Of a DNA stretch of 64,000 bases, positions 13,495 to 59,449 are shown piece by piece. The first letter of the stretch is position 1. Each line of letters starts with the position of its first letter. The notes under the pieces were generated by a model. The model saw only the letters and a program-made list of their open reading frames with translations. It was not told where the DNA came from and did not search any database. The position numbers and the translations under genes are program-made. The stretch comes from Gammaproteobacteria bacterium (lineage in GTDB: Bacteria; Pseudomonadota; Gammaproteobacteria; Eutrophobiales; Eutrophobiaceae), in the NCBI GenBank assembly GCA_021773235.1, contig JAJFKL010000041.1, forward strand, positions 1 through 64,000. Direction: 5' to 3'.

Positions 13495-13857
13495 CTTCTA
13501 AATTTAATCAATCAATACCTCAATTTCTATCTAATCTAATTTCATTTTATAACGTTTTAAATGATTTTCATTTCCGGAAGTGCGATCTGCCTAATTTAAA
13601 TCCTGAAAGTGATGAAATATCGACATCCTGATGGATATTCATCATTTAATATGGTTTATTTATCTTTTTGTAATAAAAATAATGACTTTAATATAGGCAA
13701 ACATCTTTTCCATACCCCCTGGAATTGAGACATTCGTCACATCGTCATAACAAAAGTGTGTCTCATTTGACAATTTACATACCTGATTTAGTTCATTCCA
13801 TTAACTTGGCATCTCTGTTGCAAAATATTAATTAATATTAATTTGTGGAGACATGAA
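13495..13857. other. Regulatory intergenic region between mtfA and the 68-residue membrane protein
   Basis: No gene is visible in these 363 bases. The right end holds the sigma-54-type promoter listed separately. Upstream of it, TGAGACA at 13726-13732 and TGTCTCA at 13759-13765 form an inverted pair whose centres lie 33 bases apart, about three helical turns. They could be half-sites for an enhancer-binding protein. The left half is AT-rich and probably holds the mtfA promoter, with no clear boxes. Confidence 0.45.
13806..13823 (+). promoter_or_regulatory. Sigma-54-type promoter (GG-N10-GC)
   Basis: The string TTGGCATCTCTGTTGCAA fits the -24/-12 consensus TGGCAC-N5-TTGCA with the exact ten-base spacing between GG (13808-13809) and GC (13820-13821). 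It points at the small membrane protein whose ATG is at 13858. The predicted transcription start is near 13833. Use by RpoN is inferred from the match. Confidence 0.65.
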
Positions 13858-14064
13858 ATGAATAATTTAAATCTAAATATACCATTGTCAATTATTGCAG
13901 TAGGCATCATGCTATTTCTATTAGCGCCTTTAGGATTAACTTCCCAATTTACTATTCAAGTAATATCTATGACGGGTTTATTGATCGAATTAGCTGGGAT
14001 CTTAGTAGGGTCAATTGTGTTTTACAGACATAAAGTAACTGAGATGTATTTGGAAGAAATTTAA
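13858..14064 (+). CDS. Small membrane protein, 68 residues
   Basis: The ATG at 13858 follows a TGGAG ribosome-binding site by about seven bases; an upstream TTG (13843) in the same frame is less likely. The product has two hydrophobic helices (about residues 8-27 and 33-57), joined by a short polar turn, and a charged C-terminus ending EMYLEEI. No family is recognised. A well-formed sigma-54-type promoter lies directly upstream, which is unusual for an isolated small membrane protein and suggests a conditional role, for example in nitrogen or envelope stress. Confidence 0.65.
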   Translation: MNNLNLNIPLSIIAVGIMLFLLAPLGLTSQFTIQVISMTGLLIELAGILVGSIVFYRHKVTEMYLEEI

Positions 14065-14084: not shown

Positions 14085-14300
14085 CTTGAATTGATTCTCA
14101 CTAAAGTATTAATTTAAATCGTGGTTAAGCATACGGACGACAGACAAGGATGTATAAGTGTTGCAAGACGCCTATATGGACATAGGCGATAGAACGAATC
14201 AGGAGCCAGAGTCGAGGACACGATTACAGAACGTAATCGATAGAGTCGAGTCTGGAACGGAGACCGAGGATGCCGTTATCGACCTGTCCCCTACTATTAT
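14085..14300. repeat. Hairpin-rich intergenic repeat element
   Basis: The stretch begins with GGTCTTTGATCCCTTGAATT and ends near GACCTGTCCCCTACTATTAT, both variants of the dispersed TCTGTCCCC motif. Between them are two perfect hairpins: CGCCTAT-ATGGAC-ATAGGCG around 14170-14189, and CGATTAC-AGAAC-GTAATCG at 14220-14238. Repeated GAGTCGAG strings are also present. No convincing gene is present. It looks like a decayed mobile intergenic element. Confidence 0.5.
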
Positions 14301-14581: not shown

Positions 14582-16391
14582 TCAGTCGTTGTAAATCGCT
14601 TTCACATAGGAACCTGGTGCATCTTCGATGACGCTAAGCTTACCAGCACCCGGTGTACGTGCAGGAACTTTTTCCTTACTGTGCTTCTTTAACCATTTAT
14701 GCCAATCAGTCCACCAGGAACCCGAGTGCTCTTTGGCCTGTTCGAGCCAGTTTTGTGGATCGGCTGGATTCTTGGAATGCGTCCAGTAAGCGTATTTTTT
14801 AGCGGCAGGCGGATTAATGATACCCGCAATATGACCAGAACCACCTAGGACAAATTTAACAGGGCCGGAGAATTCCTGCGTCACAGGGTAACAGGGTAAC
14901 AGGGTAACAGGATACCCATGGCGCGATATGATCTTCTTTAGTCGCCAGAACATAGGTCGGCGTTTTGATTTTGGTAACATCAATCTTCTCTCCGTTGAGC
15001 TCGAGATAGCCAGGTTTGATCAAACCATTTTCCAGATAAACCTTTTTCAGGTAATACAACAACATCTCGGCTGGCAGACGAGTAGAGTCTGAATTCCAGT
15101 AAAGCATATCGAAAGGCATGGGTTCGTTGCCTAATAAATAGTTGTTAACCACGAAGGACCAGATGAGATCGTTTTCACGCATCATGTTAAACATTTGTGC
15201 CATGTGCTTGCCATCGAGATAACCCTTCTCGCCAACATGCTTCTCTAAAGACGTAACAAGCTCTTCATCAACAAACACAGAAACCTCACCCACTTCCTGG
15301 AAGTCGAGCATGGTCGCCAACAAGGTGGCAGACTTGATTCTCTTGTCGCCTTTAGCAGCCATCCATGCCAGCGTCGTCTCTAGCAAGATTCCACCGATAC
15401 AAAAGCCGAGGGCATTAATCTCTATTTCACCTGTTGCCTTCTCTATGGCATCAATCGCTGCCAATGGGCCTTCCATCATATAATCACCAAAGTGTTTATG
15501 ACCTAGTTCCTCGGTAGGGTTGGCCCAGGAGATAACGAAGAGGGTATAGCCCTGATCGAGAATCCATTTGATGTAGCTATTCTTTGGTTGCAGATCCAGG
15601 ACGTAAAACTTGTTGATCCACGGAGGCACGATCAAGAGAGGCCGCTTATAAACTTCTTCGGTTGTCGGAGTGTATTGGATCAACTGCATGAGATCGTTCT
15701 GGAAAATAACCTTTCCCGGCGTGGTCGCAACATTCTCACCGACAGTGAAGGCCTCCATATCGGTCATAGACACTTTCAATTCACCGTCCCCACGTTCCAT
15801 GTCGCCAAGGATATTCTTTAAACCATCCAATAGATTTTGCCCGCCGGTTTCATGCACGCTCTTCATCACATCTGGATTAGTAGCAGCAAAATTGGTCGGC
15901 GACATAGCGCTGGTAAATTGACGTGAATAGAAGTCGACCTTTTGTTTAGTACCGGGATCCAGTCCTTCTACATCAGACACCAATGACTGTGTCCAGCGAC
16001 TGGTCAATAGATAAGATTGCTTGATGTAGTCAAAGGTCAATTCTTCATCCCAGGCGGCTTTTTTAAAACGACGATCACCCGGTTCAGGTTTGACCAGAGG
16101 CTCAACTTCCTGACCTGCCATACGCATCATGGTGTTCTGCCACAGAAGCAATGAATCCTTCCATAGTTGTTGTTGCGCTTCAGCTAGCTTCATGGGATCA
16201 GCCAGTAACTTCGCACTCATTTTCATAAAGGCATTGCCAATGCTCTTAGAATCGGAAACAGAGAATCCATCTCCGCCCTTCTGTCGGTCTATAAAAGCCG
16301 AAATAACACGCTGACTTTGCTCCCCCAGATCCTTCCACTGTTGTAACTTCTCTTCCGTACCAGATTCTTCTTGCTGTTCTTTGCTAGTCAT
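14582..16391 (-). pseudogene. phaC: Class I poly(3-hydroxyalkanoate) synthase, frameshifted by an 8-bp tandem repeat
   Basis: The first frame (16391 to 14856) encodes a class I PhaC with the lipase-like box GFCIGG (nucleophile Cys331), the PPWINKFYVLDL segment and the TKEDHIAPW motif with Asp487. After PW the frame meets three copies of CTGTTACC and then runs into 24 foreign residues and a stop. The next frame (down to 14582) holds the missing C-terminus with the catalytic SGHIAG histidine. With one copy instead of three, the sequence reads HIAPWVSCYPVTQEFSG and the gene becomes 597 codons, normal for class I. As written, the product lacks its catalytic histidine. A sequencing or assembly error in the repeat cannot be excluded. 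Confidence 0.92.
14883..14912 (-). repeat. 8-bp tandem repeat within phaC
   Basis: On the coding strand CTGTTACC occurs three times in a row, followed by the partial copy CTGTGACG. The 16 extra bases shift the frame. Copy numbers 1 and 4 would be in frame; 2 and 3 would not. Tandem octamers inside genes are classic sites of slipped-strand change. Confidence 0.9.
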
Positions 16392-59078: not shown

Positions 59079-59449
59079 CTTGGCATCCTCAATAGTAATA
59101 ATTAAAGCTTTGCAGAGTCAGCCTGGGATAAGTTTTACTGAAGTGAACGTGGGGGAGAGATTCTTTATGAATTTTTCGACAACTTGTTCCACAGACGTCG
59201 CCTAAGGCGCCTACGGTTGGTGTCTACCGCCTACATCCCTGTAGGCGACCCGCGTTCAGCTTCAGCTAAAGCAGGTTGTCTCTTTAGCGGTATTTTTATT
59301 GCGCCCGCAAGCTGATTTCAAATCGGCGCATACAAAGAAAATAGAGATTTTTTTGTCTTATGTCAATTACTTAAATGTTATTTAATAGTTAAAATAGCTA
59401 CTAATATATAAAGACATGAAATAATAATATTTTACAGGGAGAAAGTATT
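59079..59449. other. Divergent region between metZ and icd
   Basis: The 371 bases hold no gene. A hairpin CGCCTAC-ATCCCT-GTAGGCG lies at 59228-59247, again of the small hairpin family. The area around 59195-59290 (GTCGCCTAAGGCGCCTACGG and CGTTCAGCTTCAGCTAAAGC) is repeat-like. The icd promoter is probably in the AT-rich part after 59340. Confidence 0.45.

Follow-up and report, generated by a model that had tools for sequence, protein, structure and literature searches.

In commensal Neisseria, Nps-Npa/PilS-PilR control the type IV pilin gene pilE through sigma-54 and, among the pilus genes, control is reported for pilE alone in the sections of that article considered here (PMC6528607). PspG, according to the considered sections of another article, belongs to a response induced by secretins (PMC2763126). 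Our literature searches, judged by title and the start of the abstract, returned no description of a sigma-54 enhancer-binding protein (EBP) of an MSHA operon. Here, we analysed a 64-kb stretch of gammaproteobacterial DNA (the window) that carries a gene for a small membrane protein. We consider it fairly probable that this gene is an orphan single-gene unit in the sigma-54 regulon of an MSHA-like type IV pilus, with the EBP supplied by the pilus operon.

An earlier note on this DNA had proposed a near-canonical sigma-54-type promoter for an uncharacterised 68-residue membrane protein, and both parts of this proposal held. The GG-N10-GC element lies where it had been placed (Table 1), and a GGAG precedes the ATG of the 68-codon ORF. 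The product was predicted to form a two-helix hairpin, with an AlphaFold model (pLDDT 88.9) placing the helices at residues 7–25 and 33–67; the protein had no Pfam match at E ≤ 1, the PspG family included, and no NCBIfam match at E ≤ 1e-5. An Rfam-type search near the gene gave no credible known RNA family. The GGA-rich stretch directly 3′ of the gene, which contains short inverted repeats and has no Rfam match, may represent a CsrB-like RNA or else belong to the local repeats.

Table 1. Positions of features in the window
Feature	Position	Strand	Remarks
UAS-A, distal upstream activating element	13610–13644	+	two 16-bp palindromic sites, 19 bp start to start
UAS-A site 1	13610–13625		TGATGAAATATCGACA
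UAS-A site 2	13629–13644		TGATGGATATTCATCA
UAS-B, proximal element	13726–13772	+	conserved block; includes the TGAGACA/TGTCTCA pair
Inverted pair in UAS-B	13726–13732 and 13759–13765		TGAGACA and TGTCTCA, centres 33 bp apart
Sigma-54-type −24/−12 promoter	13806–13822	+	TTGGCATCTCTGTTGCA; GG-N10-GC, 50 bp upstream of the small ORF
Small gene (68-aa two-helix membrane protein)	13858–14064	+	ATG at 13858, stop ends at 14064
GGA-rich stretch	14120–14300	+	short inverted repeats
PhaC gene, two parts	14856–16391 and 14582–14983	−	split by a frameshift
Tandem repeat at the PhaC frameshift	14883–14911		8-bp unit ACAGGGTA, 3.6 copies
REP-like dispersed repeats	21678, 38477, 48429, 53931		TGCATGGACCTCGGTACCCCC...
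REP-like dispersed repeats	37646, 38515, 40895, 44876		AAACCGTGGTCTGTCCCCT
SAM_alpha riboswitch	59263–59339	−	over the gathering score

The window also contains a PhaC gene whose frameshift coincides with a short tandem repeat, reflecting either phase variation or an assembly error, as well as two sets of REP-like dispersed repeats and a SAM_alpha riboswitch, the latter in a gammaproteobacterial genome.

Homologues of the small protein were found in 9 of the 58 genomes searched (its own included), which together carry 10 genes. All belong to one family, represented by 37 of the 58 genomes; one relative is the MAG Thiotrichaceae bacterium UBA973 (Gammaproteobacteria), and the window's own genome (G000) has two intact copies. 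When 369 genomes across the class were searched with a profile, the only matches were to the latter genome, another small-gene genome (G016) and one weak candidate with an internal stop, so that no credible new member was added. The window protein was 43–72% identical to the other nine homologues, and M1, N7, P9, G16, F20, L21, P24, G47 and R57 were invariant in all ten. Among 28 codon-level pairs drawn from 8 of the 10 genes, dN/dS was below 1 in 27, the remaining pair being saturated in dS. Judged from these codon comparisons, purifying selection acts on the small protein.

The earlier note had named missing conservation of promoter or protein in relatives as evidence against its proposal; instead, the ten genes in 9 of the 58 genomes have the promoter at the same place. 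GG-N10-GC, in a TGGCAY/TTGCA context, was present at −50 to −63 from the ATG in 10/10 genes. The string TTGGCAYNNNNNTTGCA occurred three times in the 2.87-Mb assembly (backward control, 0); two of the occurrences precede members of the small-gene family, and the third (contig C43) adjoins unrelated genes. Upstream conservation came in blocks, namely UAS-A, UAS-B, the −24/−12 element and the Shine-Dalgarno region, separated by less conserved spacers. The predicted sigma-54-type promoter is thus dedicated to the small gene and conserved in its relatives. The search for rpoN suggested in the earlier note succeeded in 35 of the 37 family genomes but not in the window's own assembly (81% complete); the other assembly in which rpoN was absent was G011 (87% complete). 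It is very unlikely that other regulators occupy the upstream blocks or that GG-N10-GC does not serve as a promoter. Such a reading could appeal to the missing rpoN in the window's own assembly and to a promoter recognised from sequence alone, whereas the element and its spacing to the ATG were kept in all ten genes while the spacers diverged, and rpoN is nearly universal in the family.

The earlier note had further pointed to an inverted TGAGACA/TGTCTCA pair as the site of an EBP. The pair is real and part of a conserved element, UAS-B, but the exact words occur only in the window copy among the small genes. The conserved form is TGAGACAC-N2-GTCACA .. TGTGACTCA-N-TTGACA, which is divergent in G011 and partly so in G001. 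PilR had come into consideration as the UAS-B binder owing to GTCACA/TTGACA words before pilA, and was ruled out by a matrix test: when seven regions upstream of pilA were scored, between 41 and 178 of 200 shuffles did equally well.

The best conserved upstream element was UAS-A, which lies outside the interval first noted (13726–14064). All ten small genes are preceded by a pair of 16-bp palindromes resembling TGATGAAATTTCATCA, with starts 19–20 bp apart, and the distance from the end of the pair to the −24 GG is 163 bp in the window and 153–164 bp across the ten. Mean column identity over the ten genes was 80% for UAS-A versus 71% for UAS-B. UAS-A was the top-scoring tandem in the 64-kb window (37.5; runner-up, 18.0), and its profile reached an E-value of 3.9e-12 in the window's own genome. 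That genome also holds a decayed third copy of the small gene (contig C10; L013:12490–12620), in which UAS-A is followed almost immediately by the last ORF codons; the intact second copy is about 4.6 kb away, with other genes intervening. The gene downstream of the decayed copy is presumably PhoU-like, judging by its sequence.

A profile built from small-gene UAS-A only (R1) was used to score up to 150 first-look candidates per genome in 40 genomes. At E ≤ 0.01 it gave 16 matches: 8 small genes, the decayed copy, 5 promoters of a prepilin gene, each with its own GG-N10-GC, and 2 others. This MSHA-like pilin gene was found in 29 of 36 family genomes. We also scored 29 regions upstream of the pilin gene, from 28 genomes, with a matrix derived from the small-gene sites alone, and 22 of them exceeded its 99% shuffle threshold; G034 was omitted because its pilin match lacks the N-terminus. 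In 20 of the 26 regions examined, the pilin UAS ended 64–68 bp before the −24 GG; a point against a common regulator is that the small genes have UAS-A roughly 97 bp more distant from the promoter than the pilin genes do. Tandem scores of at least 24 were reached in 18 of 2746 300-bp segments of the collected sequence, with some loci represented twice; 17 of these were small-gene or pilin loci, the single other locus being L066. By these measures, the predicted tandem site is common to the pilin and the small gene. Since both genes have the same upstream control site, they are probably switched on together; against this, the small gene is absent from most pilin-bearing genomes.

The pilus operon itself starts with an EBP gene. 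In G016, metF is followed by genes for a response-regulator EBP (receiver, AAA+ and Fis-type HTH domains), an AAA_22 ATPase, an MshL-like secretin, a TPR protein, an MshE-like ATPase and a T2SSF protein, and the same cluster encodes a membrane protein that weakly matches histidine kinases. The best match of the secretin was TIGR02519 MshL (245.4, cut-off 250.2), and the MshEN domain and MshE-related c-di-GMP motif of the ATPase scored above their cut-offs. In this genome, the small gene adjoins further ORFs (L018 7203–7907 and 8487–16001), which we take to encode a PEP-CTERM-like protein and an apparent dedicated sortase system with a two-component pair. Among equivalog models, none names the pilus EBP, whose best NCBIfam match was PEP_resp_reg. 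Control of the PrsR/PEP-CTERM type was ruled out by a differing motif and by the score of the G017 orthologue (L122) against TIGR02915 (348.7 bits, cut-off 502.6).

Of the 37 family genomes, 23 have an EBP orthologue and G021 has a truncated match besides; EBP and pilin genes shared a contig in 13 of the 21 genomes with both, 8–21 kb apart. The pilin UAS was present in 19/21 genomes with the EBP versus 3/7 without it (Fisher p = 0.02, genomes treated as independent), and the pilin GG-N10-GC in 21/21 versus 3/7 (p = 0.0017, on the same assumption); these tables exclude the second pilin copy of G032. Conversely, 19 of the 22 genomes with a pilin site have the EBP; against the association, G015, G018 and G023 (83–93% complete) lack the EBP yet have the site, and in G007 and G014 the EBP is present but no pilin site exceeds the threshold.

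Among the nine small-gene genomes, the EBP was found in seven; the exceptions, G000 and G030, count against control by the pilus EBP. In G000, we detected no EBP orthologue, rpoN or such pilin; since the assembly is 81% complete, these absences may represent an assembly gap. In G030 (estimated 100% complete), metF is directly followed by an ABC permease gene, with no EBP or pilus operon there; its pilin gene has neither UAS nor sigma-54 site, and its small gene retains UAS-A, UAS-B and promoter. In genomes without the pilus EBP, the small gene would be either read by another EBP or a relic. G003 has a broken MSHA-like operon (L210:5025–6999), with a truncated ATPase gene and two transposase-like ORFs; the secretin-to-pseudopilin genes are missing, and EBP and pilin remain.

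The nitrogen response that the earlier note had considered was not supported by these comparisons: the top enhancer-like element is common to an MSHA-like pilin gene, and the pilus operon has its own EBP. Because UAS-A precedes the pilin gene and the pilus operon opens with an EBP gene, the likeliest reading is that an EBP dedicated to the pilus has the small protein as its second target. It seems unlikely that UAS-A is instead read by a general EBP (NtrC or NtrX), with pilin and small protein as targets of a global, e.g. nitrogen, response. Presence/absence profiling of 105 EBPs in 16 genomes found NtrC in 15 and NtrX in 14, and NtrC was the only EBP group in all seven small-gene genomes profiled, which keeps this explanation alive, as does the retention of the small-gene UAS-A in G030 without the pilus EBP. 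Against it, the pilin of G030, in the presence of NtrC and absence of the pilus EBP, has neither UAS nor sigma-54 site; strong R1 matches were almost confined to pilin and small genes among the up to 150 candidates scored per genome; and UAS-A (TGTCGA-N4-TCGACA/TGATGAATATTCATCA) does not resemble the NtrC operator.

We infer that the protein binding UAS-A is the pilus EBP. The response-regulator EBP, encoded at the start of the pilus operon and possibly activated by the membrane histidine-kinase-like protein of the same cluster, would bind the tandem 16-bp palindromes before the pilin and small genes and open the sigma-54 promoters of both, presumably through DNA looping between UAS-A and promoter. 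The product would sit in the inner membrane as a short hairpin whose two ends probably face the cytoplasm. As to its role, our best guess is an accessory factor of the membrane that is produced along with the pilin and either guards against pilin/secretin stress, as PspG might, or modulates the pilus platform or sensor. Such a guard or modulator is plausible by analogy because co-expression with the pilin of a secretin-bearing pilus is predicted, whereas a strictly structural pilus part is disfavoured since the small gene persists in G030, where the operon is lost, and in G003, where it is interrupted.

We give little credence to a related possibility, that the small gene encodes an envelope-stress effector akin to PspG and has a regulator of its own that binds UAS-B, with UAS-A secondary or ancestral. 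PspG is indeed sigma-54/PspF-dependent and located in the inner membrane, with two predicted helices and both ends cytoplasmic, in the sections of the source considered (PMC2763126); UAS-B, a conserved element, lies as far from the promoter as enhancers typically do, and the small gene survives loss of the pilus operon or its transposase-like interruption. However, the protein matched no Pfam family at E ≤ 1, and UAS-A is both the better conserved element and the one common to the pilin.

For a pilus-coupled protein, we tentatively propose, as rather less than an even chance, that a two-component sigma-54 regulator is dedicated to the MSHA-like pilus and that the regulon of this regulator extends beyond the pilus to a new orphan two-helix family with two enhancers (UAS-A and UAS-B), duplicated and outliving the pilus, which would represent a new kind of pilus-coupled guard or feedback protein. 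A regulator, an operator and a second target of an MSHA-like pilus are thereby predicted solely from DNA and protein sequences, and a hypothetical small membrane protein is tied by this prediction to surface attachment. Most small membrane proteins have no assigned place, and a precise operator common to the pilin offers a direct, testable route to function.

The regulation proposed here resembles Nps-Npa/PilS-PilR of Neisseria in that a two-component EBP with RpoN drives a pilin gene. Unlike in Neisseria, the EBP gene stands at the start of an MSHA-like operon, the predicted site consists of tandem TGTCGA-N4-TCGACA-like palindromes, and the second target is the gene of an orphan two-helix protein. 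The resemblance to the MSHA cluster lies in the AAA_22 ATPase, MshL-like secretin, TPR protein, MshE-like ATPase, F-type protein and pseudopilins; it differs in that the operon here starts with an EBP gene and the MshL score is slightly under the cut-off. Like the PEP-CTERM box/PrsR system in the portions of its description considered (PMC1569441), the locus has single-gene units, long upstream regions, a repeatable enhancer motif with −24/−12 and a response-regulator EBP, PEP_resp_reg being the best match of the pilus EBP; motif 1 of that system, in contrast, has TTTACA at its end and is separated from motif 2 by about 63 nt (PMC1569441, same portions). By analogy, PspG would be the nearest functional parallel: pspG, a gene of the phage-shock response controlled by PspF, likewise has a sigma-54 promoter and encodes a short two-helix inner-membrane protein, as far as the considered sections describe it (PMC2763126), whereas the small protein has no family match and its enhancer is common to a pilin gene.
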